Below, in pieces: positions 2,297 through 25,561 of a stretch of 26,100 nucleotides of DNA (position 1 is its first letter; every line of letters begins with the position of its first letter). A program made the translations under genes and the position numbers. The notes beneath the pieces are model-generated. The model saw only the letters and a program-made list of their open reading frames with translations. It was not told the DNA's origin and ran no database searches. This stretch comes from a virus, in the IMG/VR virus record IMGVR_UViG_3300040960_002183, positions 1 to 26,100 of that record. One strand, written 5' to 3'.

Positions 2297-3034
2297 TTAC
2301 AGAAAGAAAACCTGATTCACTCGATTGTGTTCGGTGAACATCCCATGATCAATGTTCTGCGAATGCATTACATCAGCTTCATAAAAGATACATCTATTAT
2401 ACACCATCTCTGCTTCGTATTCAACTTTCCATTCTCTATCACCATACAACCACTCTCTAATATATGGGTAACACTGCTCTGGTTTTGTAACCTCATTGTC
2501 AAAACCTTCAGGTTTATCAATATAATCTATCACATTATATGGAACAGACATCTGACCCTTGTAAGAATACAAATTAGTTCCTCCCTGACATTCGTCGGGG
2601 GTATTCAGATAAACTACAACACCAAATTGATTAAAGTCAGTTTTACTATCGGTTGTATAAGAATCTTGATGGGGAATACTACACCAAGGTGCATGGAATA
2701 CTCCATGATAATTTAAAATATTACACATGAACCCAACAGCATTCCATTGAAATTCATACATTTTTTGATGAGTATGCTTACTCCACAAAGAGTTATCTAA
2801 GCAGTACTTATCAAAAAATGGTTTGAGTTTTTTCCTTACTTCTGATGTCTTTTGGAATACTCTCTGACCAGGAAGACCATTGATTAAATTCTTATCATCT
2901 TTCTTTTCAGATCTTAATGCAAGTTCTCTTACTTCATCTGGATTTTTATAAAAATTATCGACAATAACAATAGTTCTATTCTGTGGTCCTACTTTTTTAA
3001 TAGTAACATCAGGGTTATCATTCAGTTCAAACAT
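2297..3034 (-). CDS. DUF6445-like protein with Fe(II)/2-oxoglutarate oxygenase fold
   Basis: The 245-residue product has the layout of a double-stranded beta-helix oxygenase. It shows an HxD metal pair at H122-Q-D124 (PHQDSY), strands FGVVVYLNTPDECQGGTNLY at 137-156, a distal H224 (MHSQN) and R238 near the end, where such enzymes hold the 2-oxoglutarate carboxylate. The overall pattern looks like the DUF6445 family, which I recall being found beside tryptophan-halogenase-like genes; a halogenase-like gene is present at 14730-15836. The ATG at 3034 has a clear ribosome-binding site (TGAGG, about six bases upstream). A terminator lies just upstream, so the gene needs read-through or its own promoter. 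The substrate is unknown. Confidence 0.6.
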   Translation of the reverse strand: MFELNDNPDVTIKKVGPQNRTIVIVDNFYKNPDEVRELALRSEKKDDKNLINGLPGQRVFQKTSEVRKKLKPFFDKYCLDNSLWSKHTHQKMYEFQWNAVGFMCNILNYHGVFHAPWCSIPHQDSYTTDSKTDFNQFGVVVYLNTPDECQGGTNLYSYKGQMSVPYNVIDYIDKPEGFDNEVTKPEQCYPYIREWLYGDREWKVEYEAEMVYNRCIFYEADVMHSQNIDHGMFTEHNRVNQVFFL

Positions 3035-3049
3035 AAAATCCTCAGAGAT

Positions 3050-3080
3050 AAAAAAATTCTGGGAAATTTTTTCCCAGAAT
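3050..3080 (-). terminator. Rho-independent terminator after the downstream Gly/Cys-rich gene
   Basis: Positions 3056-3066 and 3070-3080 form a perfect 11-bp inverted repeat (ATTCTGGGAAA / TTTCCCAGAAT) with a three-base loop. On the minus strand it is followed by seven T (3050-3056). It lies 27 bases after the stop of the 3107-3985 gene and closes the tail-fibre transcription unit. Confidence 0.9.
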
Positions 3081-3106
3081 CTTGTAACTAAAAAGTCAAA
3101 TTAGTT

Positions 3107-3985
3107 TTAGGACCAAGTGGTAACAACCACGAGTCCACCACCACCCCAGTCACCCCAGCATTGTCCACCTTGAGTGGATCCAGAGTGACCACCACCGCCA
3201 GGGAACAAGGAAGGAGCGGAACAGCAACCTCTGTTGTTGCCATAAGAGCAACGACCTACGCCAAAGTTACCACCTTGTTGCCAAGGACCAACAGGACCAG
3301 AAGCAACAGACCAAGAGAATGAGTGGCAGTTAACATGCTTCAGTTCTCCGCCAGAGAGTCCACAGATATAAAATTCATTCTCAGGGTTCTGGGAATCAGG
3401 TTTAGTTCTAGCATCAGGCCAAGAAGCAGAACAAGCATTAAAGCAGTTTGTTCTTTGGGCAACTTTTGTACAGGAATAGCAAGACTCAGTACATCTTTGA
3501 CCAGCATAAGATCCACCTTGCATGCAGAAGGTGCCAAGTCCACCACCCAATACAAAGGAAGGACAACCATAGAAACCACAACCAGTTCTACCATGGCAAC
3601 AACCACAGCAAGAGCATCTACTAGTAGATCCAGCACAGATAGTATATTGAGTAGCACCAGCGGTAAAGTGTCCACAGTTAGCATACTGCATCTTGGTGGC
3701 ATACCCACCACCACCTCCACCCATTCCAGGACCGTTACCACAGCAACGACCACCAGCTCCAGATCCGCCACCAGATACAATTTCAAACTGGATAGTGGTT
3801 ACACCATTAGGAACTGTCCAAAGGTAACAGCATCCACCGTTACAAGGAACATTGTGACAGCAGTTAAAGTAAAAATTTCTACAGACAATTCCTGTGGAGA
3901 TTCCAGTTACTTTTGTTGGTCCAACTGTACCATTGATAAATGCATCATCAGCATCGATCTTTTTAAAACTCTGGTAATCCGCCAT
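3107..3985 (-). CDS. Gly/Cys-rich tail-associated protein, copy 2 (adhesin candidate)
   Basis: The 292-residue product contains 29 cysteines and many glycine runs, and is about 85% identical by eye to the 4756-5637 product. It begins MADYQSFKKIDADDAFING, followed by the conserved glycine-rich blocks (GGGSGAGG, GMGGGGGGY, GDWGGGGLVVVTTWS). Between these blocks are short segments that differ from the paralogue (near residues 160-166, 222-225, 236-255 and 268-275). There is no signal peptide, so it is made in the cytoplasm. It starts five bases after the stop of the chaperone-like gene; AGGAG in that gene's end serves as ribosome-binding site. Glycine-rich motifs alternating with variable loops recall T-even gp38 adhesins, but I see no direct gp38 homology. 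The structural role is inferred from position. Confidence 0.7.
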   Translation of the reverse strand: MADYQSFKKIDADDAFINGTVGPTKVTGISTGIVCRNFYFNCCHNVPCNGGCCYLWTVPNGVTTIQFEIVSGGGSGAGGRCCGNGPGMGGGGGGYATKMQYANCGHFTAGATQYTICAGSTSRCSCCGCCHGRTGCGFYGCPSFVLGGGLGTFCMQGGSYAGQRCTESCYSCTKVAQRTNCFNACSASWPDARTKPDSQNPENEFYICGLSGGELKHVNCHSFSWSVASGPVGPWQQGGNFGVGRCSYGNNRGCCSAPSLFPGGGGHSGSTQGGQCWGDWGGGGLVVVTTWS

Positions 3986-3990
3986 AGATC

Positions 3991-4722
3991 TTACTCCTGA
4001 GGTGCAATATAGTCAGATCTATCTACTCCATCATCGTCTCCAGGATCCCCAGGTTCTGTAGGCCAAACAATCAAATAAGTATCTTCACCAACACTTGCCC
4101 ATCGATCAGGAAGGTCTCTCAGTTTTTGACGATACGCTCTCCACTCGGTAAACGCAGTTGCAGGAGCATCAACAGGAATTTTGTTATCACTTGCTTCAAG
4201 CAGTCTGTTTCTAGCCGACCGCACTACATCCCAACCAAATGTTTTTTGAACTTCACCATCTTCTGACCACTCATCTTCTTCAGTGTGGGGACCAGAGAAT
4301 CTGCCAGTGTTCCAGCTCTCCGTCTCAAAATTATAATGGAAGGAGCACATGTCAAACACTTCATGGAAGTGATGCCAATCCGCAAGAACAGGGTTTGGTT
4401 CATCATCAGGACCAGCAGGAGTTTCAATCATCATGGGTCCGTCAATACCACCCCAAAGAGCAATAGCATTCATCGTATGAGTTCTTGCATCCAACTCTAC
4501 GACTCTAGCATCAATGGGGGGATCTCTATCCTCGGGTTCATCGGATGGGAAAGAATGCTCCTCTACCCACTTAGGATTCTCTTCAGTACCAATGTTCCTA
4601 TACCAAACGGTAATACGGTCAGGACCATTGTATGTGCAAATACCACTCGCGTTGGTATCTTGGTCGTCAGTATACCACTTTACAGGAATAGGATAAATGA
4701 TAGTCTTTGTGATGTTTGCCAT
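3991..4722 (-). CDS. Tail-fibre assembly chaperone-like protein
   Basis: The 243-residue product has a beta-rich N-terminal half (MANITKTIIYPIPVKWYTDD) and a helical C-terminal segment. That segment, TEWRAYRQKLRDLPDRW followed by IVWPTEPGDP, matches the W-x-x-Y-R-Q-x-L-R-D plus WPxxP signature of phage tail assembly chaperones (Phage_tail_APC type, seen at the end of many tail-fibre assembly proteins). A very acidic stretch (SEDGEVQKTF and neighbours) is charged enough for a chaperone. The gene sits between the two Gly/Cys-rich paralogues. It has its own GGAG ribosome-binding site (TAGGAGTACGC) and a late-type promoter box just upstream. A role in folding or attaching the Cys-rich proteins or the long fibre is a reasonable inference. 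Confidence 0.65.
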   Translation of the reverse strand: MANITKTIIYPIPVKWYTDDQDTNASGICTYNGPDRITVWYRNIGTEENPKWVEEHSFPSDEPEDRDPPIDARVVELDARTHTMNAIALWGGIDGPMMIETPAGPDDEPNPVLADWHHFHEVFDMCSFHYNFETESWNTGRFSGPHTEEDEWSEDGEVQKTFGWDVVRSARNRLLEASDNKIPVDAPATAFTEWRAYRQKLRDLPDRWASVGEDTYLIVWPTEPGDPGDDDGVDRSDYIAPQE

Positions 4723-4746
4723 TGTTAAAGCGTACTCCTATAGTTG

Positions 4747-4754
4747 TATTTATT
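4747..4754 (-). promoter_or_regulatory. T4-late-type promoter box (AATAAATA)
   Basis: The minus strand reads AATAAATA, one base from the T4 late consensus TATAAATA. It is 25 bases upstream of the ATG at 4722, so the transcript would start only about a dozen bases before the ribosome-binding site. It lies at the end of the preceding gene, where no other promoter is visible. Confidence 0.5.
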
Positions 4755-4755
4755 A

Positions 4756-5637
4756 TTAAGACCAAGTGGTGACAACGACAAGTCCGCCGCCGCCCCAGTC
4801 GCCCCAGCACTGGTTGCCATCACAAGTATTAGCACTGTGACCACCGCCACCAGGGAACAGGGAAGGAGCGGAACAGCAACCTCTAACTCTAGCAGTAGAG
4901 CAACGAGATACACCAAAGTTTCTTTGAGACTGCCAAGGACCAACAGGACCAGAGGCAACAGACCATGCACCAGAGTGACAGTCCACATGCTTCAGTTCAC
5001 CACCAGACAAACCGCAAATATAGAATTCATTCTCAGGGTTCTGGGAATCAGGCTTGGTTCTAGCATCAGGCCAAGCAGCAGAACAAGCATTAAAGCAGTT
5101 TGTTCTTTGGGCAACCTTCAAGCAGGAATAGCAGCTGTTGGTGCATCTATGAGTGGAGTAAGAACCACCCTGCATACAGAATGTACCAAGTCCACCACCA
5201 AGAACGAACGAAGGACATCCATAGAAACCACATCCTGTTCTACCGTGGCAACAACCGCAGCAAGAACATCTGCTAGTAGATCCAGCACAAATGGTGTACT
5301 GGGTGGAACCTGCAGTGAAGTGGTTGCAGTTAGCATACTGCATCTTAGTAGCGTAACCGCCACCTCCACCTGCCATACCAGGACCGTTACCACAACAGCG
5401 AGCACCAGAACCAGATCCGCCACCAGATACAATTTCAAATTGGATGCTGGTTACACCATTAGGAACTGTCCAAAGGTAACAACAACCGCCATTACAGGGA
5501 ACATTGTGACAGCAGTTGAAATAAAACATCCTGCAGACAATGCCAGTGGAAATACCCGCTACTTTTGTAGGTCCGATAGATCCATTCAATACGGCATCGG
5601 CAGCATCGATCTTTTTAAAAGTCTGATAATCAGCCAT
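4756..5637 (-). CDS. Gly/Cys-rich tail-associated protein, copy 1 (adhesin candidate)
   Basis: This 293-residue protein is the paralogue of the 3107-3985 product. It has 30 cysteines with mostly conserved spacing, including the dense cluster RCSCCGCCHGRTGCGFYGC around residues 122-140. It shares the glycine-rich blocks and the C-terminal GDWGGGGLVVVTTWS. The differences are concentrated in short patches (SYSTHRCTNS, SGAWSV, SQRNFGVSRCSTARV, ANTCDGN), as expected for exposed, selected loops. There is no signal peptide or membrane segment. It follows the long tail fibre, separated by a terminator and a possible late promoter, so it can be expressed on its own. A virion tail-tip or adhesin role is inferred; no known family is certain. 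Confidence 0.7.
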   Translation of the reverse strand: MADYQTFKKIDAADAVLNGSIGPTKVAGISTGIVCRMFYFNCCHNVPCNGGCCYLWTVPNGVTSIQFEIVSGGGSGSGARCCGNGPGMAGGGGGYATKMQYANCNHFTAGSTQYTICAGSTSRCSCCGCCHGRTGCGFYGCPSFVLGGGLGTFCMQGGSYSTHRCTNSCYSCLKVAQRTNCFNACSAAWPDARTKPDSQNPENEFYICGLSGGELKHVDCHSGAWSVASGPVGPWQSQRNFGVSRCSTARVRGCCSAPSLFPGGGGHSANTCDGNQCWGDWGGGGLVVVTTWS

Positions 5638-5668: not shown

Positions 5669-5676
5669 GTATTTAG
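5669..5676 (-). promoter_or_regulatory. Possible late-type promoter box (CTAAATAC)
   Basis: The minus strand reads CTAAATAC, a weaker relative of the late consensus. It lies about 32 bases upstream of the ATG at 5637 and directly after a terminator, the place where a new promoter is needed. The spacing matches the boxes before 4722 and 10217. Confidence 0.35.
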
Positions 5677-5687
5677 TAAACATATAA

Positions 5688-5714
5688 CAAAAATAAGGGG
5701 AGGTTGCCCTCCCC
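5688..5714 (-). terminator. Rho-independent terminator after the long tail fibre
   Basis: A seven-base G/C-rich stem (GGGGAGG at 5697-5703, CCTCCCC at 5708-5714) with a four-base loop is followed on the minus strand by TTATTTTTG. It lies 11 bases after the fibre gene's stop. Confidence 0.85.
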
Positions 5715-5724
5715 AGTAGAAGAA

Positions 5725-8700
5725 TCAGACGGTGATGATTCTCCAACCTTGTGTGCCATCATAGTAAACAAGTTCAAATGCAGCACCTTCAGTTGTAACT
5801 GTCAAGTTGCTGGTGGAACCCATGATTCTTGTTCCATTAGGAGCAATCGTCAGAGCGTTGGAATCAAATGTGTTAGCGACATCGAAGATTCTAACTCTGT
5901 CTCCTTTGTTGGGAGTAGCAGGCATGTTAACTGTAAATCCACCACCAGAGGTGTTACAGAATGCTTGCTGGTAGTTTGCCAGAGTTGTTCCAGAGGAGAC
6001 ATCTACATTGGCGAAGTTACCAACGGGAACCCAGTTAGATCCGTTATAGAACTCAAAGATGTTTGCATCAGTGTCGTAACGGAGACCGCCTTCATGCAGA
6101 TCATCGCCAGTCGGGCGAGTTGCTTGAGCACCACGCGGGGGAACAAGGATACCAGCGGTTCCATCCATCTTAGCGCGAGTCAGGAAGCCACGAACTGCTT
6201 TCTCAGTAGGACATGCCTGGTTGGAGTTACCACCCATGGTCTCGTCAGACGAGAATTCGTTAATTGCTTCACCGATCTGACCACCGATAGCACCCAGTCT
6301 CAGTTCTGTCAAACCAGACAGGTTGAAGGCAGAGGCGTCCAGGGTAGCAGCACCAGTCAACTGGTTAACGGAGAAGTATTCACCAACTCTGAAGTTACCA
6401 CCTTGGTCGGTAGAAACATAGAAGATCTTACCAGAGTTAACGATGTTTGTTTCGTTACCTTGTGCGGCAGTGTTCTCATCAACATCAGGATAATTGGTTT
6501 GTGCAGTGTTACCTGTACCAATCAGCAGGAAGTCGTGACCAGTGAGTCTTACTTTAGAGAACTTCGTTCTCATTGTGAACTCTTGATTATCCAGGGAAGA
6601 AGGAGCAGATGCCTTGGCAGGAGCAACACTGATTGTTGCACGACCAGTTCCAGAGTTATAATCAGTTACGGTTCTGATGATGTAAGTATTGACATCAGAG
6701 TAACCAAGTCCAACGGTGGAGAATCCAAGAGCGTCACCAACGATCGGAGTTGTGCTCAGTCCAGTTACCTCAAACAGAGCGTCCTTCTGACCAGAGACAG
6801 CGTTGGATCCAGTACCGATTCTAAAGTATCCAGTAGCACCAGCACCGACGGAATCAAGTTCGACATACTCACCAGGGGTGAAGACGGTAGTACCAACACC
6901 AACAGCACCGTTAGCACCATCGGCGTTACCGAATCCAGAGTCATACTTAAAGTAGATAGCGTCAGAAGCAGACTGGTCGTTAGTCAGTACAGCGCGAGCA
7001 CCAGACTCAGTACCACGCATCGTAGCACCGACAGACAGGTCACCGACATATGTACCAACAACGGTTGTCATCTTATCGCCATAGAGGCGACCAGTTCTAG
7101 CAACCTCAAGAGTGGAGAATCCAACAGCGATTGCACCATAATCTCCATAGGAGTTGTTACCAGACAGAGATCTAATCTCCGATCCCTGAGAAGAAACATA
7201 ACCGAATGCACAGTAGTAAGTGAAGCAGGATACAACCTCAGCGAGAGCATCGTCTTCCAGATAGAATCCTACACCACCAGAGTGAATGTTGGTGAATGCG
7301 TCGAACACCATCGACTTAGCACCTGATCCTTCAGGTTTACCCTCGTGAACACCACCCTCAATGTAAATACCGATTGCACCGCCGTGACCAGTTCCATCAG
7401 TGGTTACATCAGAGAAAGCAGTACAGTCTTTGATGTAAGGAGAACGCTCAAGAATCGGAGTCTCGGGGTTCAATCTGAAGTATACTCCACAGGCAGTCGA
7501 TCCAACACCAGTTTTATTCTGCCACTTATCTGTTTCGAAAGGATCGTTTACATCGTAGTCGAAACCTTGGAGACCACGAAGAGTAACTGCCTGAACAGTA
7601 GTAGAGTCAGAGACAAAGAACATCGTCTGACGAGAGTTGGGACGCAGACCGTCAGTGGAAAGACCAGCAGCAGGTTCAATCGTCGTACCTCTCAGAACAT
7701 CACCAGCAATGGAGAAGTTCTTAGGAAGAACAATCGGAAGTTGCTCAGCGAATACACCCGCAGACAACTTCAGAATGATTGGAGATACATCAGTAACTTC
7801 ACCACCGCTTACATAGGTGTGGGCAATGGTGGAGATACCAACATTGGTTACGAATGTATCGGAGTCAGTAACGGAGTCAACCTTAAAGAAGAATCCTTGT
7901 GTACCATCAGGGAAGATTGTTGTGGTAACACCAGCGTGAGCAGCACCACAAGTAAAGGCGATACCAGACAGTTTAACCTGACCGTTCGGGAACAGACCGT
8001 GAGATGAAGCAGTAACTGTAGCAACACCACTAGTCTCGTCATAAACAAAGTTAGTGATGTCTCTTCTTCTCTGACCAGCAGTAGAAGCATAAGCGATCGT
8101 TCCCCAAGCGTTGTCAGGTGTCAGACCAGTGTTGTTGTCATTACCTTGCTGTGCGTCTACGAAGTAAACCTTAGTACGCAGACCAGGATACTGCCATTCA
8201 ATCTCGTCGTTAGCAGATACTCTCAGGTATGTACCTTGCGTACCAATACCCTGTCTTGTCGGACCAGTACCGTCTCTGGTAAGCAGGTCGCCTTTGGTTG
8301 TCAGCAGAGCGGCGCTATCACCGATAGCGAATGCTGCCCACATGGTAGCAGCAGTACCAGGCTGGACATTAATGTTGGAGGAAGCAATCGAGATGTAAGC
8401 AGAGGAAGAATACTCAGCAACATCACCGATTTCATAAACATTAGAACCACTCCAAGTGCTTCTCCAGTTGAAACCTCTGTTCAGCAGAGACCAACCATTA
8501 ATGCCACTGTCGGTTTGAGTAATGCCATTACCAACAGGTCTCTTATCATTACCAATGAGAAGATCATCAGCAATATAAGTATTACCACCAAGAGTTACAA
8601 TCTGACCTCTGGCATATTGAGAACCAGGATTATAGGTAGAACCACCAGCAGTACCGATACCACCAACGACCAGACGCCACAGGTCGGGGTTCTCGTTAGG

Positions 8701-9384
8701 TTGTGCTCCGTAGGGGTTGGTGCCGATAGCAACATAAGAGGCACCTCTAAACTCTACGACATCGCCCTTTTCATATCGGGCAACAGAATCATAGAGACCT
8801 TCGTTAGTGAATCCAGCGGAGAACGAAGCAAACCTATTGGCAGGAGGATAGAAAGCATCAGAACCGATACCTGTAGTATCATGCAGAGAGGAAGATACTC
8901 CAGAAGCAGTCAGGTCAGATGCAACTTGGAAGGGAGAAGTACAACGGAATTCTTGACCACCATAGGTAACAACATCGTTGATACCATAGTAGGTGTCAGT
9001 GGTAAAGGCACCTCTAAAGTTCAGACCCTCGGAATACAGTTCCCAATACGCGGGGAAATCTGCAGAGTACCAGTTGCTCTGGATACCAGTAGAAGTGTGC
9101 TGTGCCGTACAGATATATTGATTACCGCCTTCCTTGACGATATCGTTTACAACATATCCAGTATTCGTCGCCCACTCGCCAGCAAAATTCTGACCCTCGG
9201 TATGGAGGGACCAGTTTGCACTATCGTTCGGAAATCCAGTAGAGGAAGCATCCGATGTGTGGTTGCCAGTACATACATAAGAGCTGGCACCGTATCTAAC
9301 GATGTCATCAATTACATATGCAGTAGAAGCAGCCCAGGCTCCACGCCAGTTAAACTTCAGTCTGCCAAGTCTAAATTCTGCCAT
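5725..9384 (-). CDS. Long tail fibre / tailspike-like protein with carbohydrate-binding-like repeats
   Basis: This 1219-residue structural protein is modular. Residues 11-352 hold about six tandem copies (near 11-60, 66-117, 122-150, 193-240, 246-302 and 305-352) of a motif such as W-x(4-6)-Y-x-x-x-D-I-V-x-x-x-G-x-x-Y-x-C/A. This resembles small chitin-binding (CBM5/12-type) modules. A hinge (TTKGDLLTRDGTGPTRQGIG) precedes VYFVDAQQGNDNNTGLTPDN at about 406, the usual entry to a right-handed beta-helix of tailspikes. Near the end is RPTGDDLHEGGLRYDTDANI, then a beta-rich C-terminal domain ending YDGTQGWRIITV. It should bind host surface glycan; no depolymerase active site can be assigned. It begins 12 bases after the small upstream structural gene and has a terminator behind it. 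Confidence 0.85.
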   Translation of the reverse strand: MAEFRLGRLKFNWRGAWAASTAYVIDDIVRYGASSYVCTGNHTSDASSTGFPNDSANWSLHTEGQNFAGEWATNTGYVVNDIVKEGGNQYICTAQHTSTGIQSNWYSADFPAYWELYSEGLNFRGAFTTDTYYGINDVVTYGGQEFRCTSPFQVASDLTASGVSSSLHDTTGIGSDAFYPPANRFASFSAGFTNEGLYDSVARYEKGDVVEFRGASYVAIGTNPYGAQPNENPDLWRLVVGGIGTAGGSTYNPGSQYARGQIVTLGGNTYIADDLLIGNDKRPVGNGITQTDSGINGWSLLNRGFNWRSTWSGSNVYEIGDVAEYSSSAYISIASSNINVQPGTAATMWAAFAIGDSAALLTTKGDLLTRDGTGPTRQGIGTQGTYLRVSANDEIEWQYPGLRTKVYFVDAQQGNDNNTGLTPDNAWGTIAYASTAGQRRRDITNFVYDETSGVATVTASSHGLFPNGQVKLSGIAFTCGAAHAGVTTTIFPDGTQGFFFKVDSVTDSDTFVTNVGISTIAHTYVSGGEVTDVSPIILKLSAGVFAEQLPIVLPKNFSIAGDVLRGTTIEPAAGLSTDGLRPNSRQTMFFVSDSTTVQAVTLRGLQGFDYDVNDPFETDKWQNKTGVGSTACGVYFRLNPETPILERSPYIKDCTAFSDVTTDGTGHGGAIGIYIEGGVHEGKPEGSGAKSMVFDAFTNIHSGGVGFYLEDDALAEVVSCFTYYCAFGYVSSQGSEIRSLSGNNSYGDYGAIAVGFSTLEVARTGRLYGDKMTTVVGTYVGDLSVGATMRGTESGARAVLTNDQSASDAIYFKYDSGFGNADGANGAVGVGTTVFTPGEYVELDSVGAGATGYFRIGTGSNAVSGQKDALFEVTGLSTTPIVGDALGFSTVGLGYSDVNTYIIRTVTDYNSGTGRATISVAPAKASAPSSLDNQEFTMRTKFSKVRLTGHDFLLIGTGNTAQTNYPDVDENTAAQGNETNIVNSGKIFYVSTDQGGNFRVGEYFSVNQLTGAATLDASAFNLSGLTELRLGAIGGQIGEAINEFSSDETMGGNSNQACPTEKAVRGFLTRAKMDGTAGILVPPRGAQATRPTGDDLHEGGLRYDTDANIFEFYNGSNWVPVGNFANVDVSSGTTLANYQQAFCNTSGGGFTVNMPATPNKGDRVRIFDVANTFDSNALTIAPNGTRIMGSTSNLTVTTEGAAFELVYYDGTQGWRIITV

Positions 9385-14729: not shown

Positions 14730-15836
14730 TTAACACAAAGACTGAGTTCCGTCAATCCAGTTGTGGAAGGTGGTGGTGTACCAATGACCATAGGTAGGTG
14801 TATCGTCATTGATGAGTTCAATCCTTGTCTTTGACTTGGCGTCAGTAATAAAATCGAAGAACCGCTGATCATAAGAATGAGAGCGACTCATCTCTTCCGC
14901 TGCTGACCAGAACATTGTAGCATACCGAGACCCGTTAGCGTAATGCCATAGGATGAAATTCTGTACCTCTTCCACATCTGTCACAAGCTCTTGAAGGATG
15001 GACCGTTTGGACCTTCCATCAAAGATCCATTCGCAAACTAAAGAAGTCCAGCGATAATATGTTTCCACCGAACTTGCTTCCAATGGTTCAATGAAAAGCA
15101 ACCTGTTTCCATTCAGGATAACCTTGTCATTTTGAATTGGTTTCCTAGCAAGATAGTTTTTGAAATGCAAAGTATCTGTTGGTTTCACACCAAAGATTTT
15201 TTGTATGTTTATCTTTGCCTCTTCATTAGAAGTATACTTGTCGTTATACAAGTATCCATATGAAGTAAATCCTTTATTAGGAATACCGAAGCACCATCCA
15301 TCTGGGGTAGCAATACAGCGTGTCCAATGTTGATCTGGATCTCTGTAACTATCTTGACCCAAGACTACACTATTGAGAGGATTCTTTAAGATGTTGTAGT
15401 AAGAAAAGTCTTTGGGAGTTCCTCTACAGTCGAAGACATAATCACAATCCAATTCATTACAATCTTCGACATGTTGTTCTATAAACTTACATACTTTATT
15501 CTTGATCATACACTCTCTCAGTTTATCTGGAGAGTAATGTACTGCCATGTAGTCCATAGGGAATGGATGGAAGAACTTATCCTTCTTGGTTCCCCACCCC
15601 TCATACAAAATACCAGATTTAAATGTGGCGTCGATCTCATTATTGAACCAATCAACACCAAGGATCTCATGAATGAGACCCACAAAGTTTACAAGAGACC
15701 CCTGTCCTACTTTCTCAATAGGAATCTTAGGATCATAGTAGACTTCAATCTCTACATCCTGTCCATATGTTTCTTTGAGCAAAAATAGGGCAACGACCAA
15801 TCCGCCGTTGCCCCCACCAACAATACCAATCTTCAT
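14730..15836 (-). CDS. Tryptophan-halogenase-like FAD-dependent enzyme
   Basis: The 368-residue product starts MKIGIVGGGNGGLVVALFLL, with a GxGxxG FAD loop at residues 7-12. F72-K73 (ATFKSGILYEGW) lies where flavin-dependent tryptophan halogenases carry the catalytic lysine. W181-C-F-G-I-P186 is a slightly changed form of the family's WxWxIP motif. NRLLFIEPLEASS at 244-256 matches the conserved EPLE block near the active site. Such enzymes use FADH2, oxygen and halide to chlorinate or brominate aromatic rings. The length is shorter than the usual 500 or so, so activity and substrate are open. It overlaps the 54-residue gene upstream by ATGA. A reductase must come from the host or another locus. 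Confidence 0.8.
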   Translation of the reverse strand: MKIGIVGGGNGGLVVALFLLKETYGQDVEIEVYYDPKIPIEKVGQGSLVNFVGLIHEILGVDWFNNEIDATFKSGILYEGWGTKKDKFFHPFPMDYMAVHYSPDKLRECMIKNKVCKFIEQHVEDCNELDCDYVFDCRGTPKDFSYYNILKNPLNSVVLGQDSYRDPDQHWTRCIATPDGWCFGIPNKGFTSYGYLYNDKYTSNEEAKINIQKIFGVKPTDTLHFKNYLARKPIQNDKVILNGNRLLFIEPLEASSVETYYRWTSLVCEWIFDGRSKRSILQELVTDVEEVQNFILWHYANGSRYATMFWSAAEEMSRSHSYDQRFFDFITDAKSKTRIELINDDTPTYGHWYTTTFHNWIDGTQSLC

Positions 15837-16269: not shown

Positions 16270-16815
16270 TTATTCTTCTTCGTCTTGGATTCCAAGATGT
16301 TCTTTGATACGCCTATATGCGTTCAGAGGAGTTGATTCCTCATAAGGATCTCCCACAAGATTGTGGCACATACCTTCTTCATCGAGCATCAATTCAATCT
16401 CGCCATCAACAACATATGCTGCGTAGCGCCAAGAACGATTACCAAATCCAACATTAGTCTTCTTGACAAGCATACCAATGCCATCAGCAAGTTCAGCGTT
16501 TCCGTCAGGAATCATCTCAACTTTTTTAATTTCAAGAGACTTTGCCCATGCTTCCATCACATAGTCATCATTAACACTGGTGCAATAGATAGCATCAATG
16601 CCAAGATCCTTGACGAACTTATCATAAAGATCTTCATATGCAGGAAGCATTTCGTTGGTGCATGTAGGAGTAAATGCACCAGGAAGTCCGAACAGAATTA
16701 CTTTCTTTCCAGCAAAGTAATCTGCGGTATCAACAATTTGATACCCTTCCATTTCACCGTTTTCATCGGGGATAGGGGATCCCTGAAGATGGAATCTTGC
16801 GTGAGGAATTCTCAT
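16270..16815 (-). CDS. Peroxiredoxin (Prx5/PrxII-type redoxin)
   Basis: The 181-residue product carries KKVILFGLPGAFTPTCTNEM, with the peroxidatic cysteine at C52 in PxxxTxxC form. It is followed by IDAIYCTSVNDDYVMEAWAK and NRSWRYAAYVVDG, typical of Prx5/PrxII enzymes that reduce H2O2 and alkyl hydroperoxides with thioredoxin or glutaredoxin. I start at ATG 16815 because the Hli stop is one base upstream (TGATATG); any longer frame would overlap the Hli gene completely. In an operon with Hli and ferredoxin, it should protect the photosynthetic machinery from light-driven oxidants during infection. Confidence 0.85.
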   Translation of the reverse strand: MRIPHARFHLQGSPIPDENGEMEGYQIVDTADYFAGKKVILFGLPGAFTPTCTNEMLPAYEDLYDKFVKDLGIDAIYCTSVNDDYVMEAWAKSLEIKKVEMIPDGNAELADGIGMLVKKTNVGFGNRSWRYAAYVVDGEIELMLDEEGMCHNLVGDPYEESTPLNAYRRIKEHLGIQDEEE

Positions 16816-16816
16816 A

Positions 16817-16936
16817 TCACCAAATACCAGGGATGATTTGACCAGTGGTGAAGTATGCACCAACAGCGGCAACAAAACCAATCATTGCCAGGCGAGCATT
16901 GAGGATCTCTGCCTCAGGAGTAAAGAGTTTTTTCAT
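16817..16936 (-). CDS. hli: High-light-inducible protein, short form (39 residues)
   Basis: The frame from ATG 16936 encodes MKKLFTPEAEILNARLAMIG and then a single membrane helix ending GQIIPGIW. ExxNxRxAMxGF is the chlorophyll-binding signature of Hli/SCP proteins, which bind chlorophyll and carotenoid and dissipate energy around photosystem II. At 39 residues it is among the shortest of the family, almost only the helix. It is tightly packed: one base after the upstream stop and one base before the peroxiredoxin ATG. Confidence 0.92.
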   Translation of the reverse strand: MKKLFTPEAEILNARLAMIGFVAAVGAYFTTGQIIPGIW

Positions 16937-18900: not shown

Positions 18901-19692
18901 TTACTTCCCTTCAAAACCAGGGGGTAACCGACCAAGGTAGGGATTGAGATCAAAGAATTGATTCCAGTCCTCAACCATATTGGCATCATTACGCCAGAAG
19001 TTCCAAAGGGCATCATGACATTGCCGATGAAAAACATCAATGTGAATGTCATGAATGTCTGACCCAAGTGCAATCTTGTACATAAAGATTGGCATTGCAT
19101 AAGTCAGACCACTATTGTAGATGAGATCATCTGCAACAGCGCGTGGTTTAATTCTACTATCTAATTTGTACTTCCCGTTCTTTGTGTAAAGATCAAGAAG
19201 TTTGTGTGCGTATCTGCGATTAATGACATAGGCAGCTGTTGAAAAGTCATTCACGAAGCGATAGTGCATCTGCATGACAGGAACCGCAGGGTTGATAATT
19301 GCGATTTGAAGAATGTCCCATGCTACAGGAGCATGGCGAAAGAAATCTTTCCAAGAGAATGGCCAGTGCTTGACCACCTCAAGATCACAATCATCCTCCA
19401 TCATTATAGCATATTCATCAGTGGAAGTTTCCAACCAATGTTGAATTGCTTTGAGGTGAGAAGTTACACAACCAATCTCACCCGATGACATATTGTCTGG
19501 ATACTTACCAGCAATAATATCACTCAGGTCATCATGACGACCATCGTAGGCAGAGATCCTAGTATGCTTTTCAATTTCCCAATAAGCAAATTGATCCTCC
19601 ATAAACTTACGACGATCTTCTTTATCGTCTAAGTTTAACCAATAGATGTGAGGAAGGTCTTTTAGTTTGCTCGCTGATTTATTTTTGTCCAT
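18901..19692 (-). CDS. Glycosyltransferase family 25 (LPS-type) enzyme
   Basis: The 263-residue product shows the GT25 pattern: PHIYWLNLDDKEDRRKFME near residue 14, SSGEIGCVTSHLKAIQHW at 69-86, and the acidic YAIMMEDDCD with E99-D-D101. GT25 enzymes add galactose or similar sugars in LPS or collagen-like glycans. The ATG at 19692 is preferred to a TTG three codons earlier; it overlaps the upstream gene by 14 bases. It is the last gene of the glycan operon. Confidence 0.8.
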   Translation of the reverse strand: MDKNKSASKLKDLPHIYWLNLDDKEDRRKFMEDQFAYWEIEKHTRISAYDGRHDDLSDIIAGKYPDNMSSGEIGCVTSHLKAIQHWLETSTDEYAIMMEDDCDLEVVKHWPFSWKDFFRHAPVAWDILQIAIINPAVPVMQMHYRFVNDFSTAAYVINRRYAHKLLDLYTKNGKYKLDSRIKPRAVADDLIYNSGLTYAMPIFMYKIALGSDIHDIHIDVFHRQCHDALWNFWRNDANMVEDWNQFFDLNPYLGRLPPGFEGK

Positions 19693-20632
19693 GCTTTGCA
19701 ATCACTTCATTCACATTGGGCAGGTAGTGTTTCTGGAGTACATTGCTCCAGTCAAACTCTTTAGCATACTCAAGGATCTCGTTACGATGGGCAACAGAGT
19801 ATTCCCTGTTCTTGATTATAGCATACTCTACATATTCCACATCATCAATCTTAGACTCAGGAATTACTGTAATAAACTCACGATCAAGATCCAGGTTTGC
19901 TGTAGCAAACTCACTGACCACCACACCGAGACCAGCAGCAAATGCTTCCATGATAACCAGAGAGTGTGCTTCACCGTCAGACAGGAGCACAAGGTTACCA
20001 TAGTCAGTCAAATAGTCATGGAGATATTCTTTCTTCCATTCACCGAGATAATTCTTGTTAGCATTGAACCTCTTGTCTGCAATGTTACCAGCAAAGAACA
20101 GACTGTCGATGGACTGGAACTTATGCTGACGCTTACGGTAGTCTACCTTTGCAAGATAGATGCTACGGTCAGGAAACTCTGGTGTGTCTGTAGTACGGAA
20201 GAGATCTAGGTTGACACCATTAGGAACGATGGCAAGTTTCTCCTCAGGGATATCACCAAAGAACTGATATGCTTTCTTAATACCCTCAGACAGACAGAAA
20301 ACATTCGGTCTCGTCTTTTGGAAGTGACCGAAGATCTGCCCATACCCATTCATCTTGTCTGGACGCTCGATGTAGGCAAAGTGGGTGGTACACGCACAAG
20401 GATATTGAACAAAAGGATAGAGGACAATCCAGTCATCATAATGAATGTGGACAAAATCAGGGCGATACGCATTGATTCTTTTGATGATCTCTCTTGGATC
20501 TCCAACATTGATGATGTCAACTTCATGACCAAGTTTCTCCAGAGTAAGTTTATAATCCCAGATCAAACTCTCCACTGCCCCCCATCCTACTGGAGGGATT
20601 GGAGTGTTTGGACCGATGATAGAGAATCTCAT
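19679..20632 (-). CDS. GT4-type glycosyltransferase (GT-B fold)
   Basis: The 317-residue product has an N-terminal glycine loop in MRFSIIGPNTPIPPVGWGAV and an acceptor-side VHIHYDD. The GT4 EX7E donor motif is E221-AHSLVIM-E229, followed by AFAAGLGVVVSE. It is clearly related to the next gene upstream (shared GWGAVExLIWDY start and PESKI block), so the two came from a duplication. The start overlaps the upstream stop (ATGA). The donor sugar is unknown. Confidence 0.85.
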   Translation of the reverse strand: MRFSIIGPNTPIPPVGWGAVESLIWDYKLTLEKLGHEVDIINVGDPREIIKRINAYRPDFVHIHYDDWIVLYPFVQYPCACTTHFAYIERPDKMNGYGQIFGHFQKTRPNVFCLSEGIKKAYQFFGDIPEEKLAIVPNGVNLDLFRTTDTPEFPDRSIYLAKVDYRKRQHKFQSIDSLFFAGNIADKRFNANKNYLGEWKKEYLHDYLTDYGNLVLLSDGEAHSLVIMEAFAAGLGVVVSEFATANLDLDREFITVIPESKIDDVEYVEYAIIKNREYSVAHRNEILEYAKEFDWSNVLQKHYLPNVNEVIAKHGQK

Positions 20633-21591
20633 AGTAACGATTGCAACTTCGGAATGTATTCATAAGCAAGAATGTTTTCAAGACCGAATTCGTTAATGCC
20701 GTATTCTCTGATCTCTTTCCTGTATTGCTTAGATACTTTTTTATTGTTCTCGATTACTTCAAGAACATGTTCAAGGTTATTTATTTTGCTCTCTGGAATG
20801 ACATCAATCCAAGGTTTAGATGTGTCAAGCTCTGGAGTGATTGCTTCTGAGCAAACAATACCCAGACCACAGATCAATCCTTCCTTAATAACAAGAGGTG
20901 TAGTGTTCTCAACCTCACTCAACAATGCCATGTTGGAATAGCATGTGATGTATTCGTTGAGTTTCTCTCTGATAACCTCACCCTTATAGTTTGGATTATT
21001 CTTAGAGAACTTACCACCAAACTCCATACGGCCCATGAAGTCAACGCTGTCAATGTTCTCAAGGAGATACTGACGCTTGCGGTCTACAATCTGAGAGAAG
21101 CATAGAGTTCTATCAAAACTAGCAAACTCATCAAACTTGTATGGGTAAGGACGAACACCAAGTTTACTCATCCAAACACGATTAGGATTAGCACCAAGAC
21201 CAATCCAAGTGTCTGCATCTTTTTGAGAGGAACAGAAGATATGATGCTTTCTATTAGCAGCAATCTTCTGAGCAATTGGTCCGTAGTTATCTCTACCCCA
21301 CATGTGTGGAGTATTAACATATGGATAATGACTTGAGACGATTAGAGCTCCGCATAGAGGAGCCAGGTCATCAATGATGTCATTGAAAACATCATAATGA
21401 AGGTGAACAATGTCATACTTTCCGTAAGCAACTTCAAATTTGATTAGTTCTCTGTCAGGTGTGTTGATAATTTCAACACGATGACCGAGTTCTCTAAGGA
21501 TTACAGTGTAATCCCAGATCAACATCTCTACAGCACCCCAACCTTCTGGTGGAATCTGCATGATGCCAGGACCAATCAGAGCAATTTTCAT
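20629..21591 (-). CDS. GT4-type glycosyltransferase, diverged paralogue
   Basis: The 320-residue product shares MKIALIGPGI...GWGAVEMLIWDY and VHLHYD with its neighbour. Its donor motif is stretched: E228-NTTPLVIK-E237 has eight residues between the glutamates instead of seven, so donor binding may differ or activity may be weakened. ATGA overlaps at both ends keep it in the operon. Confidence 0.8.
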   Translation of the reverse strand: MKIALIGPGIMQIPPEGWGAVEMLIWDYTVILRELGHRVEIINTPDRELIKFEVAYGKYDIVHLHYDVFNDIIDDLAPLCGALIVSSHYPYVNTPHMWGRDNYGPIAQKIAANRKHHIFCSSQKDADTWIGLGANPNRVWMSKLGVRPYPYKFDEFASFDRTLCFSQIVDRKRQYLLENIDSVDFMGRMEFGGKFSKNNPNYKGEVIREKLNEYITCYSNMALLSEVENTTPLVIKEGLICGLGIVCSEAITPELDTSKPWIDVIPESKINNLEHVLEVIENNKKVSKQYRKEIREYGINEFGLENILAYEYIPKLQSLL

Positions 21592-22427
21592 CTATAGTCC
21601 TCCCAATACATAGTTTTTTTAATTTCGTTAATAAAACCAGGGCTATGTTGTGCAAGTGATGCTACATTCTCACATGCACTGTGGAAAGCGAATACCTTTT
21701 CGTACTCATCTTCCTGAGGATTCTTACCATACCACACACCATCAACAAGTTTAAGGTCTTGTTGATCTGCTGCAGCACAGTGATTGAATGCACCGTTAGT
21801 AAATTTATATCCACCAACTTCATTCATAGCAAGACAGAGAACAAGTTCATCTGTCACACCATTGTGCAGTCCACGGTCACCAAAGATATCATTGAAGATC
21901 TCCATGTACCGTTCAAACAGTTTATCATGCTTACCTTTCTGGAAAAGGAATGCTCCAGAGGCAGCATAGTCATAGGTTCCAAGATCTTGAGGGAAGTACT
22001 TACCAAGACCAGTATGATCAACCTCAACATTACGGAGGTAATCTCCTAGAGTAGGCACCCACCAGTGACGAGCGATGAGGAAATCATCCTCTGCTTCCTC
22101 AATCAATTGATCAACACGATCATTGACAACAACACAATCCGTATCGAGATAGATACAATAGTCAGTCTCTACATGCTTGAATACATTGTAACGCTCTGCC
22201 CAGATGTGAGGTTGGAACCAGTTACGATCATCCTCATTACTAATAGCATCGGCATTTGCTTTGACGATCTTGACCTTTGGGTCATCGATATCAAGACGAT
22301 CATCCATGTCAAGGATAACAATCTCATGATCCTGTTCAATCCTTTCAAGAGACTCACAAGCTCTCATGAGGTTGGTGTAATACTTATCATCACCACCAAC
22401 GATAAAACCAAAACTAAGTTTTGTCAT
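21588..22427 (-). CDS. GT-A fold glycosyltransferase, GT8-like
   Basis: The 279-residue product has a DxD metal motif in YCIYLDTDCVVVND (D95-T-D97), preceded by W-x-E-R-YNVFKHVETD. Later blocks are AASGAFLFQKGKHDKLF and FAFHSACENV. This arrangement fits nucleotide-sugar-dependent GT8-like enzymes. The ATG overlaps the upstream stop. Sugar and acceptor are not predictable. Confidence 0.7.
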   Translation of the reverse strand: MTKLSFGFIVGGDDKYYTNLMRACESLERIEQDHEIVILDMDDRLDIDDPKVKIVKANADAISNEDDRNWFQPHIWAERYNVFKHVETDYCIYLDTDCVVVNDRVDQLIEEAEDDFLIARHWWVPTLGDYLRNVEVDHTGLGKYFPQDLGTYDYAASGAFLFQKGKHDKLFERYMEIFNDIFGDRGLHNGVTDELVLCLAMNEVGGYKFTNGAFNHCAAADQQDLKLVDGVWYGKNPQEDEYEKVFAFHSACENVASLAQHSPGFINEIKKTMYWEDYR

Positions 22428-23353
22428 AACAATCTAAGGAGTCCATTAATACGATTGACATAGGTGTGATGCTCTTTGGTATATTGCATCTGCCTGAGAA
22501 TCAAGTTTTTGTCATCTCTATGACGCAAACCTGCTTCAAATAATTCTTCAATATTCTCTCTACAAATGACTTCGGGTCCAGCAAACTCTGCAAGTTTAGG
22601 AGAGTTTGTCAATCCGAGACTACCATAACTCATAGTCTTAAATACTCTACAAGTTTTGGTTCCCCACCTCTTGTGAGTATCATTCCTGAGATCTGGATTG
22701 AGAAAAGACCTTTGCATAAGACCGCGCATTACTTCACCGTCTAGAGGATTGGTCCAAGGGTTAGACCATCCAGTCTTCACACCCATTTTAGCACACAAAG
22801 ATCCAAACTCTTGAATCAGATGTGCATTCTTGAATCTACCCTCATGAGAAATGCTGCCAATAAAATACCAGATATTCTCCCGTTGAATGTTTACCCATTC
22901 CTCATCGAACTCCTCAGGAAGGAGATCAGTTGCCCAAGCGAGGTATGCAATTTCATATCCCTTCTCTCTTGAGGAAATACGATCAACGCATACTCCAGTA
23001 TCTAGTTCTTCAAAGTCAGACAAGTTATGATGGAACTCATAGTTGTCATTCTCCATACTATCTTGATGATAGCGAACATCAATTAGTTTCTTACAATTGC
23101 CAAGATACTTTTCTGGTTTTACACATACATGCACATAGTATACGCAACTTGCCAGAACTGGAATATTCTTGTCGGCATATCCCTCAGTAAAGAATACAGA
23201 GTCTTCATAGTCGAAGTCGGCATGACTAGGATACTCCCCGTCATGGAACCAGTGAACCTGATGTCCTGCCCGTTCTAATGCTTTCTTGAATCCCTCATGT
23301 ACATAAGAATATGTGTCAGTGTGTAGAGGGTATCCCCAAAGAATACATTTCAT
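22424..23353 (-). CDS. Probable glycosyltransferase (GT-B-like), family uncertain
   Basis: The 309-residue product starts MKCILWGYPLHTDTYSYVHE and includes ENIWYFIGSISHEGRFKNAH (near 160). The C-terminal region is TCRVFKTMSYGSLGLTNSPK, then ICRENIEELFEAGL. The latter resembles the spore-type or CgeB-like GT-B C-terminal half, where F-E/K-x-x-x-x-G-x-x-x-x-x-S-x contacts the donor. I start at ATG 23353, which shares one base with the upstream stop (TGATG); the TTG just before it is unlikely. The glycosyltransferase call rests on this block and on its place among such genes. Confidence 0.55.
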   Translation of the reverse strand: MKCILWGYPLHTDTYSYVHEGFKKALERAGHQVHWFHDGEYPSHADFDYEDSVFFTEGYADKNIPVLASCVYYVHVCVKPEKYLGNCKKLIDVRYHQDSMENDNYEFHHNLSDFEELDTGVCVDRISSREKGYEIAYLAWATDLLPEEFDEEWVNIQRENIWYFIGSISHEGRFKNAHLIQEFGSLCAKMGVKTGWSNPWTNPLDGEVMRGLMQRSFLNPDLRNDTHKRWGTKTCRVFKTMSYGSLGLTNSPKLAEFAGPEVICRENIEELFEAGLRHRDDKNLILRQMQYTKEHHTYVNRINGLLRLL

Positions 23354-24054
23354 CAAACTCTCCCCAACATATAATCCTCTGCCTTCTTAGTCTCTCCAGT
23401 CACACACTTCATAGCCTTGATAGTATGGGAGGGAACAAGATCGGGATGAGCCCACCAATCTTCGAAAGGATGCTCATCATCAACAGAAATGTTGTCAGCG
23501 ATCAACTCATAACCGAATGACTCAAGATACTCACGGGAAGCATCACGAACTTCAGGACCATCATTATAAGCATCATGCTCAAATGTAATGGTAGCAAACT
23601 TATACTTATTGAGATCGATTTTTTTCAGTGCTTCAAAAGTCACAGAAGCAGGTTCGCAATCTACTTGAAGATAATCAAAGGTAGGTCCAAGACCAACCTC
23701 TTCAAACAGTTCATCAAAGTCAGCAGTCGTAGCATCACCTACAGCAACTTTTGCCCGACGATGTTTGTTGTATAGTTCTGCTTCGTGTTCTTTAATTTCA
23801 AATCCAATACCATCCCACTCAAAACGAGACTCAAGCAGAGCAGTATTGTTAGAGATCACAGGATGACCAGATCCAATCTCAACAAAAGTTCCTTTGGGTT
23901 TACCATCATTCATACACAGGACAAACATGTCCTGATAGCATTGAGAAAAGTTCTGGTGACTTACCAGTTCATATCCAGAAAATTTGTAACGGAGTTCACC
24001 TGCTTTCTCAGCAGTGTAAAAGGTTGGCATTTGCCAGGCATTAGGGTCGCTCAT
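23353..24054 (-). CDS. FkbM-like SAM-dependent methyltransferase
   Basis: The 233-residue product has GTFVEIGSGHPVISNNTALL (56-75) as the SAM-binding loop. Next come WDGIGFEIKEHEAELYNKHR, VGDATTADFDELF, and YLQVDCEPASVTFEALKKID as the motif after the central strand. This order matches FkbM-type O-methyltransferases, often found in glycan clusters where they cap sugar hydroxyls. ATGA overlaps the upstream GT6 gene's stop. It is probably the methyl-decorating step of the operon's glycan. Confidence 0.75.
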   Translation of the reverse strand: MSDPNAWQMPTFYTAEKAGELRYKFSGYELVSHQNFSQCYQDMFVLCMNDGKPKGTFVEIGSGHPVISNNTALLESRFEWDGIGFEIKEHEAELYNKHRRAKVAVGDATTADFDELFEEVGLGPTFDYLQVDCEPASVTFEALKKIDLNKYKFATITFEHDAYNDGPEVRDASREYLESFGYELIADNISVDDEHPFEDWWAHPDLVPSHTIKAMKCVTGETKKAEDYMLGRV

Positions 24055-24755
24055 ACTTGATAAGATGAATTATCTTTGGCTAGGTGGATAATTTTTTGTT
24101 GGTACGGATAATTGGGGAAGCATTCTGGGAATGCATAGTCTGGAGGTAGAGCGTTTACTCTATCTTGATTCTCAATAAAAAATTTATTAAGGTGACTTTC
24201 ATCATGCCATACGGCAATTATATCATTTTTATAGTCATTGTCAACTCTTTCTCTTAAGAGTTTCATCATGGGAATAATTGACTCAATCTTCCCTCCCCAT
24301 AAACATCCTTGATAATAAGACAACTGATCTCCAGTCACACATGCTTCAGATTCAAGACGCCGCTCAAAGGTCCCAGTTCCAGTATTGTAATGGCATGGAT
24401 GATGGACAGCAATAAAGTCTTTATCCCACTTGAAGAATTCTTCAGGAGAAATTTCCTGATTAACTCTCATGTCAGCATCAAGGAATACTAACCAATCATA
24501 TTCCTCCAAATCTTCTTGCGCTAACAAGATAGTATGGAATCTTTCTAAGGTAATGGATGGCCATTCCTTATGTGGAATTTTAAGGAGAGTTATGTTTGAG
24601 GGAAGATCTCCGTCTAACTCACCATCAGTGAACACAAAGTATTGTTTTTCTAGACTAGGAAAGAGTTTTTCTTCACAGGTCTCATAATAACTGGGAAAGA
24701 AGTTGAGATATCTATTAGTCCCAATAAAAATTATTGCAACTTTTGCACTTCTCAT
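24051..24755 (-). CDS. Glycosyltransferase family 6 (ABO/alpha-1,3-galactosyltransferase family)
   Basis: The 234-residue product matches the GT6 core closely. It has the DxD motif WLVFLDADMRV (D93-A-D95), HHPCHYNTGTG, then ERRLESEACVTGDQLSYYQG with CLWGG (131-154), and AVWHDESHLNKFF (181-193). That last block is almost the same as in the human ABO and alpha-1,3-galactosyltransferases. These retaining enzymes add Gal or GalNAc to a galactose that often carries fucose. There is no membrane anchor, unlike vertebrate members. I start at ATG 24755, which overlaps the fucosyltransferase stop (ATGA). Confidence 0.9.
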   Translation of the reverse strand: MRSAKVAIIFIGTNRYLNFFPSYYETCEEKLFPSLEKQYFVFTDGELDGDLPSNITLLKIPHKEWPSITLERFHTILLAQEDLEEYDWLVFLDADMRVNQEISPEEFFKWDKDFIAVHHPCHYNTGTGTFERRLESEACVTGDQLSYYQGCLWGGKIESIIPMMKLLRERVDNDYKNDIIAVWHDESHLNKFFIENQDRVNALPPDYAFPECFPNYPYQQKIIHLAKDNSSYQV

Positions 24756-25561
24756 ACTACCTCCCAACCTTCACAATACAAATCTTTGGTATTATTAGTT
24801 TGATTCAACGGAGGACCAAACCATTTAGATGGTGCGACTACTCTCTTGTTCTCATTAGTAGAAAGCCATGCTCCCCACCAACTGAAAGAACTATTAGCAA
24901 TAATAAAATCACTGCAGAGAGACATCAAACAAAGATCAAGATATTGATCTCTATTTTCGGAAACCAAGAACCTATCATTGTCGAACAGGTCTTCTTGTAG
25001 GCACCACTCTGGATCATCGGAGAAGATAATCACCTCACGATCAGAGTCAAACCGTGCCAACGCTTCCTTATAGTAATTTATATCACAAATAGGATGGTGT
25101 GAATACTGAGCGTAGTCAGTACGACGAACATGCAGTGCGATGGGGTTGGTTACCTCCTTTCGCATCTTACGACATGGTTCTAGATACTCTTCCTTGAAGG
25201 TAAAGTCAGCAAGCAGATCTTCTCTGATGTGTTTGAAATACTTTTCCGATTGAAAGAATCCAAATAGACTTACAAAGTCAGGACAATTATTGAAAAGATT
25301 CTCATCAAATTCAAAACTCTCTTCTCTAACGAGAGGACGGTCCTGATCGATGTGCTGAACTTGAAGTGCATTAAGACCAGGCAATTCAAAAGGAACGAAC
25401 AGTTGATGCTCGTTCCATTCATCTGCTTTGTTTCTATAATTTGATGGGGGAATACAATAGTTAAATCCCCTATTAGCAGCGATACCTTTTACAGCAGCAT
25501 ACTGAAACATTTGATTGGCAAGACGCTCTTTCATCTTGCCGACATAGTTAATACCAATCAT
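24752..25561 (-). CDS. Alpha-1,2-fucosyltransferase, GT11
   Basis: The 269-residue product has the GT11 N-terminal RLANQMFQYAAVKGIA (13-28), the donor motif HVRRTDY (144-150), and CSDFIIANSSFSWWGAWLS (216-234), all diagnostic of alpha-1,2-fucosyltransferases. It uses GDP-fucose, made by the gene immediately upstream, and it precedes a GT6 enzyme whose vertebrate relatives need this fucosylated acceptor. The start overlaps the synthase stop (ATGA). Confidence 0.9.
   Translation of the reverse strand: MIGINYVGKMKERLANQMFQYAAVKGIAANRGFNYCIPPSNYRNKADEWNEHQLFVPFELPGLNALQVQHIDQDRPLVREESFEFDENLFNNCPDFVSLFGFFQSEKYFKHIREDLLADFTFKEEYLEPCRKMRKEVTNPIALHVRRTDYAQYSHHPICDINYYKEALARFDSDREVIIFSDDPEWCLQEDLFDNDRFLVSENRDQYLDLCLMSLCSDFIIANSSFSWWGAWLSTNENKRVVAPSKWFGPPLNQTNNTKDLYCEGWEVV

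Follow-up and report, generated by a model that had tools for sequence, protein, structure and literature searches.

Here, we examine a cassette of three genes in a T4-like cyanophage that carries psbA and psbD (Photo_RC), using positions 1 to 26,100 of the IMG/VR virus record IMGVR_UViG_3300040960_002183; this whole stretch of 26,100 nucleotides will be referred to as the window. Lying behind the gene for a tail fibre protein of 1219 amino acids (aa), the cassette consists of two cysteine- and glycine-rich open reading frames (ORFs), termed copy A and copy B, with a tail fibre assembly chaperone-like gene between them (Table 1). The two copies are considered here as candidate tail-tip adhesins.

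The A-chaperone-B cassette

A first-pass annotation of the window had placed here two genes of about 880 bp, each encoding 29–30 cysteines (about 10%), and both were found as minus-strand ORFs in those places; its by-eye estimate of 85% identity was close to the measured values of 81% for DNA and 88% for protein. Cysteine accounts for 10.2% of the residues of copy A and 9.9% of those of copy B, and glycine for 17.4% and 20.5%, respectively. Across the remaining 29 window genes, cysteine averages 1.46%, and at that rate the probability of finding at least 29 cysteines in 292 residues is ~1e-15. For comparison, the mean is 0.9% in the proteins of T4 and 1.4% in those of the disulfide-network phage Milano, whose structural proteins reach 2.1% (PMC10811340).

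The gene between the copies, already taken to be tail-assembly-chaperone-like in the first pass, matches Phage_tail_APC (PF16778; 43.2 bits, E 3.5e-11, residues 166–224) well above the cut-off of 26.6 bits, and PHROG tail fibre assembly families match it too. Its AlphaFold2 model, with a predicted local distance difference test score (pLDDT) of 72.9, is rich in beta structure in its N-terminal part and forms helices at residues 164–177 and 192–202. This is the layout of gp25, the tail fibre chaperone of cyanophage Pam3 (an N-terminal beta-sandwich followed by a C-terminal helical domain for trimerisation), though the best solved match is weak (2kz6; Z 6.1 over 59 C-terminal residues) and Pam3 gp25 itself was absent among the structure matches listed for the model.

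Copy A matches phrog_4205 (E 1.6e-23), and its orthologues in relatives occupy the equivalent position; copy B begins five bases past the stop of the chaperone gene. Terminator-like hairpins lie on both sides of the cassette, which suggests that A, the chaperone gene, and B form one unit. The upstream fibre has several CBM_5_12 matches, the gene order is kept in relatives, and we regard this fibre as a candidate carrier of the A and B tips. On the other side of the cassette, the DUF6445/2OG-Fe(II) oxygenase-like neighbour recurs in most of the relatives' loci that were compared.

The sequence nTAAATA is the core of the T4-type late promoter. It is found 29–42 bases upstream of copy A in all 14 relatives checked, and it precedes the chaperone gene in 11 of 11 and copy B in none of 7. 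The presence of the motif at copy A and at the chaperone gene fits virion proteins, and we infer, by analogy with T4, that it is used as a late promoter here.

Table 1. Features of the cassette and its immediate surroundings (window coordinates).
Feature	Position	Strand	Description
DUF6445 / 2OG-Fe(II) oxygenase-like gene	2297..3034	-	Downstream neighbour of copy B; PF20043, E 1.3e-14
Terminator-like hairpin	3053..3083	-	After copy B; 14-pair stem, then U-rich tail
Copy B, Cys/Gly-rich adhesin candidate	3107..3985	-	ORF, 292 aa, 29 Cys
Tail fibre assembly chaperone-like gene	3991..4722	-	243 aa, between copies A and B; PF16778, PHROG
ATAAATA late-promoter-like motif	4747..4753	-	Lies 31 bases before the chaperone gene; coordinates calculated from this distance
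Copy A, Cys/Gly-rich adhesin candidate	4756..5637	-	ORF, 293 aa, 30 Cys; opens the unit
CTAAATA late-promoter-like motif	5670..5676	-	Lies 39 bases before copy A; coordinates calculated from this distance
Terminator-like hairpin	5697..5714	-	Between fibre and copy A; 7-pair G+C-rich stem, U-rich tail
Tail fibre protein	5725..9384	-	1219 aa, directly upstream of copy A; phrog_9851 tail fiber protein, E 1.6e-245

Predicted fold and family relationships

An AlphaFold2 model was built on 66 family sequences, and copy B was compared with solved structures. The model of copy B has a predicted template modelling score (pTM) of 0.73 and a mean pLDDT of 68.7. The closest solved structure is the tail fibre of cyanophage Pam3 (7ypx; Z 17.1, root-mean-square deviation 3.0 over 202 residues, 22% identity), followed by a second Pam3 entry (7yfw; Z 16.5), the tail tip of Bxb1 (Z 12.8), and the tumour necrosis factor (TNF)-like and glycine-rich (TG) domains of ALK/LTK (Z 8.5–9.8), while the first row with a non-TG fold stands at Z 3.7. 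The predicted fold is, therefore, a TNF-like beta-sandwich that continues into glycine-rich loops, as in Pam3 gp24. The first-pass annotation had proposed tail-tip adhesins and had held that a structure unrelated to tail fibres would count against them; the Pam3 match speaks for its proposal on both points.

Searches of the PDB sequences with the adhesin, whether by profile or by single sequence, gave no match, and it was fold comparison alone that gave one. With the Pfam family Gly_rich_2 (PF21722), the window copies score 17.8 and 18.4 bits (the latter for copy A), under the curated cut-off of 24.3, whereas relatives pass it (L090 with 26.5 bits, S-SSM7 with 24.9), and L090 also matches ALK_LTK_GRD (E 6e-4). 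Kinship to Gly_rich_2 thus runs through intermediates.

In Pam3, gp24 was detected in virions by mass spectrometry and gp25 was not; the latter is the neighbouring chaperone, which wraps and folds gp24 (PMC9608196). The window genes share with the gp24/gp25 pair (7ypx/7yfw; PMC9608196) the TNF-like plus glycine-rich fold, a neighbouring tail fibre assembly chaperone, a cyanobacterial host, and variable distal loops, and with gp24 a place at the C-terminal end of the tail fibre unit. They differ in that copies A and B are separate, tip-sized proteins behind the 1219-aa fibre, with no long N-terminal docking helix predicted, and in that they contain 10% cysteine and come in 1–3 copies, whereas the Pam3 domain is a glycine-dominated lattice (39% glycine).

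The comparison with T-even gp38 made in the first-pass annotation holds for the design only. As in gp38 of S16 (6f45) and PP01, A and B appear to be separate small tip proteins in which variable loops lie between the conserved glycine-rich motifs of a conserved framework. The predicted fold, however, is of the Pam3 gp24 type; the gp38 sandwich was not demonstrable, neither copy matched the gp38 Pfam family, and S16 gp38 (6f45) was absent among the structure rows listed. T-even gp38 combines a polyglycine-II sandwich with a beta-helix domain, whereas the dense cysteines belong to A and B. One should, therefore, treat gp38 only as an analogy of design, not as evidence of membership.

Two scans of IMG/VR, counting distinct, full-length proteins, returned 106 family members, with ~7–12% cysteine and 1, 2, or 3 copies per locus. 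A chaperone-like gene accompanies the cassette across the relatives checked, a homologue adjoining copy 1 in one-, two-, and three-copy loci alike. Among cultured cyanophages, members occupy the equivalent position in S-SSM7, Sf-FS3, and S-CAM1 (three copies each), P-SSM2 (two; PSSM2_304/306), and S-CAM3 (up to three matches). These clusters resemble the window in being glycine-rich, with 8–12% cysteine, in following a tail fibre as 2–3 copies, and in having a chaperone-like gene close by, but they are only about one-third identical to the window copies, and their records give neither name nor function. The cultured-phage members are annotated as 'hypothetical' throughout, and the two PHROGs that contain the family (phrog_4205 and phrog_35878) have their function annotated as unknown. 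A tblastn search of copy B against cultured phages gave no match, probably through low-complexity masking and ~33% identity, and the cultured relatives were located via gene position and other family members.

A cysteine-poor counterpart is found in Syn9, where the tandem glycine-rich proteins gp36, gp38, and gp39 (22–35% glycine) stand behind the putative fibre gp34, in a position equivalent to that of the window cassette, but contain only 2–8 cysteines. Syn9 gp38 is a Gly_rich_2 protein (E 2e-10; 41.4 bits), and it is also among the predicted-structure matches of the window adhesin. With such a counterpart, the family looks like the cysteine-rich branch of a broader glycine-rich adhesin module. 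We conclude that it is a genuine, conserved, and unnamed cysteine-rich branch within the family of phage tips that have the TNF-like/glycine-rich fold. The first-pass annotation knew of no described system of this form; the arrangement is not unique, being that of a widespread, unnamed cyanomyovirus family with 1–3 copies per phage, although a literature search, with most subscription papers beyond its reach, found no publication on cysteine-rich cyanophage tail tips.

Some individual cases deserve mention. Syn9 gp39 (L104:17150-18328) looks like a second glycine-rich adhesin copy in which the first part is repeated almost exactly and the ends seem to be out of frame, possibly a scar of duplication or recombination in this cysteine-poor counterpart. 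S-PM2p175, the 'adhesin block' (PMC9910659), was considered as a family member and rejected, as it proved to be a virion gene of 3.5 kb that belongs to a different type. Cellular homologues were confined to two contigs (L105 and L106) of one Neomarinimicrobiota metagenome-assembled genome. These contigs, of 153 and 335 kb, have the cassette as in L028, plus a second chaperone-like gene past copy 3; sharing a phage-type cassette with L028, they are likely to come from a binned large phage and not to represent a cellular gene.

Variable patches and exchange between the copies

The differences between A and B were described in the first pass as falling in a few short patches between conserved blocks, and this was borne out: the mean amino acid difference over nine phages is 1.5% at residues 121–158, 24% at 159–190, and 30% at 217–250. 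In 29 close relatives, 28 of the 29 cysteines are invariant, and mean entropy is 0.006 for cysteine, 0.35 for glycine, and 0.57 for other residues, so that the framework is conserved in its cysteines even more than in its glycines. Residues other than these two have an entropy of 0.65 in the long loops versus 0.38 in the strands (P 0.0016), which is the enrichment of variation in loops that the first-pass annotation had expected of an adhesin. The hot patches are at 160–168, 191–198, 217–225, and 236–244, with a further one in the N-terminal part (13–22), outside the adhesive fold. The ratio of nonsynonymous to synonymous substitution (dN/dS) is 0.38–0.40 at residues 216–250, 0.17–0.21 at 156–180, and 0.014–0.023 at 118–142; compared with the scaffold, the loops change in a relaxed or diversifying way.

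The A and B genes of one phage have DNA identities of 80–84%, whereas a given copy compared between distant phages often reaches only 75–77%. Identical synonymous codons are clustered (sum-of-squares P 0.0002–0.006 in eight of nine phages, and 0.06 in one). In L007/L008, the clearest case, 117 copy-shared and 25 genome-shared sites fall into 9 runs (P <0.0002), with conversion tracts at residues 104–131 and 182–199. Comparison of the window with L007 reveals a swapped segment at 246–280, where window A is nearest to L007 B and window B to L007 A (86% and 87% crosswise, versus 76% and 72%); segment 216–245 is kept by position (88% and 90%). Such clustered within-genome tracts are not explained by orthology and point to diversification of A and B by gene conversion, in line with the recombination between copies that had been suggested from the first reading. 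An assembly chimera is an unlikely source of the mosaics, since near-identical sequences were recovered from independent samples (L003, L004/L005, L010).

The stretch at residues 181–204 shows a proportion of synonymous differences (pS) between A and B of 0.19 versus ~0.5 elsewhere, and its codons are also more similar between phages. It may be either a conversion hot spot or a region under constraint at the DNA/RNA level.

In the tree, the window clade grows from single-copy relatives, and its duplication is, therefore, recent; the three-copy loci show the opposite regime, with copies 1, 2, and 3 being old positional orthologues. A young duplication inside a single-copy clade, the lack of B in some close relatives (L014, L015), and the concerted evolution of A and B might suggest that the copies are redundant; B would then have arisen recently as a dosage duplicate, would play no separate part, and exchange would merely homogenise the pair. 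We find this doubtful. Despite conversion, sites 16 (V in A, F in B) and 223 (always different) distinguish the copies in all nine two-copy phages, the pair differs by 30% at 217–250, and each copy of the three-copy loci has an old positional identity. We read this as A and B differing in attachment and ligand while sharing or trading the remainder.

Cysteine chemistry, alternative readings, and significance

It is likely, in our judgement, that A and B are late-made, chaperone-dependent, receptor-binding tips of the tail fibre that were recently duplicated and diversified by exchange, and whose cysteines are probably disulfide-linked. Each copy would comprise a short copy-specific N-terminal segment (1–33), the TNF-like beta-sandwich, and long loops; in the homologue Pam3 gp24, such loops lie packed against one another and build the distal glycine-rich domain that faces the host. 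The A-chaperone-B unit would be expressed late, and the chaperone would help the plastic loops to fold and trimerise. The ~29 invariant cysteines may serve as a rigid framework replacing much of the stabilisation that a glycine lattice gives to cysteine-poor relatives; they would form disulfides once the particle reaches oxic seawater, thereby fixing the variable loop patches. The copies would keep distinct positions or partners (sites 16 and 223) and at the same time recombine their loops through conversion and swapped segments, with a possible effect on host range.

A number of points weigh against this reading and should be kept in mind. The model of copy B is of moderate quality, with pLDDT <50 at residues 1–31, 128–134, and 175–203, and it predicts no counterpart of the long docking helix at the N-terminus of Pam3 gp24 (pLDDT ~37–40 at residues 1–31). 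Nowhere does dN/dS exceed 1, and with a maximum of 0.40 strong positive selection is not apparent. Of 68 representatives, 45 have an odd number of cysteines, and in a tree-based co-change test no cysteine pair survives the number of tests, which leaves disulfide pairing without positive support; the pairs 165–181 and 112–272, obtained by simple correlation, were dropped after that test. The idea that the cysteines sit mainly at loop tips was rejected as well, as 19 of 29 cysteines lie in loops versus 167 of 259 residues (64%). The Syn9 record labels the fibre gp34 alone as structural, leaving the cysteine-poor, glycine-rich gp36, gp38, and gp39 unlabelled.

Judged by analogy, disulfides are the most likely state of the cysteines, with metal binding as the second choice. 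Disulfides anchor the Pam3 fibres to the baseplate, according to work cited in PMC11821841, and form an extensive network in phage Milano (PMC10811340), which together provide a precedent for such bonds in tails that work extracellularly. Milano, however, distributes its cysteines sparsely (2.1%) among many tail proteins, whereas in A and B they are packed into the presumed tip.

The same tips could instead bind zinc, iron, or an iron-sulfur centre through cysteine and some histidine, and would then be metal-stabilised or metal-carrying adhesins. Tail tips of other phages do contain iron or zinc (T4 gp37, T4 gp12), and the odd cysteine counts would be accommodated, as would the dense CC/CxC/CxxC clusters beside histidine (CCHNVPCNGGCC, CSCCGCCHGRTGC). 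We nevertheless consider metal binding unlikely: PHROG and Pfam searches matched none of the known metal-site families, extracellular oxic use favours disulfides, and many cysteines shift position between subfamilies (80 cysteine columns, with 257 inferred changes), whereas a fixed metal site would not usually behave in this way. More improbable still is that A and B stay off the virion as late non-structural proteins (for example, a co-chaperone or infected-cell decoration) sharing the TNF-like/glycine-rich fold, for although this fold is also found in ALK/LTK receptors and the cultured records examined give the proteins no structural label, the genes come straight after a tail fibre and are accompanied by a fibre chaperone, their nearest solved structures belong to two phage tail tips (Pam3 and Bxb1), and the loop variation resembles that of host recognition.

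Other genes of the window may interest those annotating related phages. Fairly near the cysteine-rich cassette and two genes from psbA lies a Redoxin/AhpC-TSA (peroxiredoxin-like) gene (16270-16881), and a Tryptophan-halogenase family gene is found upstream of psbA in minus-strand order (14730-15836); Syn9 has two of the latter directly after its glycine-rich cluster. A Phage_OMP gene (PF24653; 18362-18733) encodes a cyanophage outer-membrane-like beta barrel. Positions 18901-26100 hold a run of ~9 minus-strand genes that resemble sugar genes; Pfam assigns two glycosyltransferase families (25 and 11), and the remaining glycosyltransferase-, methyltransferase-, and epimerase-like calls were made by eye. 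Together they would form a sugar-building island beside the photosystem genes.

Although marine T4-like cyanophages rank among the most common viruses in the sea, most of their receptor-binding proteins lack an assignment, and the family described here provides a candidate host-contact tip in the cultured model phages P-SSM2, S-CAM1, and S-SSM7. It also poses a puzzle in protein design, namely, a glycine-loop adhesin with a framework that is ~1/10 cysteine, far above known disulfide-rich phages, which is synthesised under the reducing conditions of the cytoplasm but works in oxic seawater. Duplication combined with the exchange of loop segments would, if true, constitute a non-retroelement route to adhesin diversity. 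As a speculation, to which we give rather little credence at present, virions may carry an adhesin 'wardrobe' of 2–3 paralogous cysteine-locked tips at different attachment points, with loops continually reassorted by gene conversion and a cysteine network that would lock the tip, covalently or in response to redox state, once it is outside the cell; reduction or exchange of this lock at the host surface might then trigger infection. Such a scaffold, if true, would be the first of its kind.

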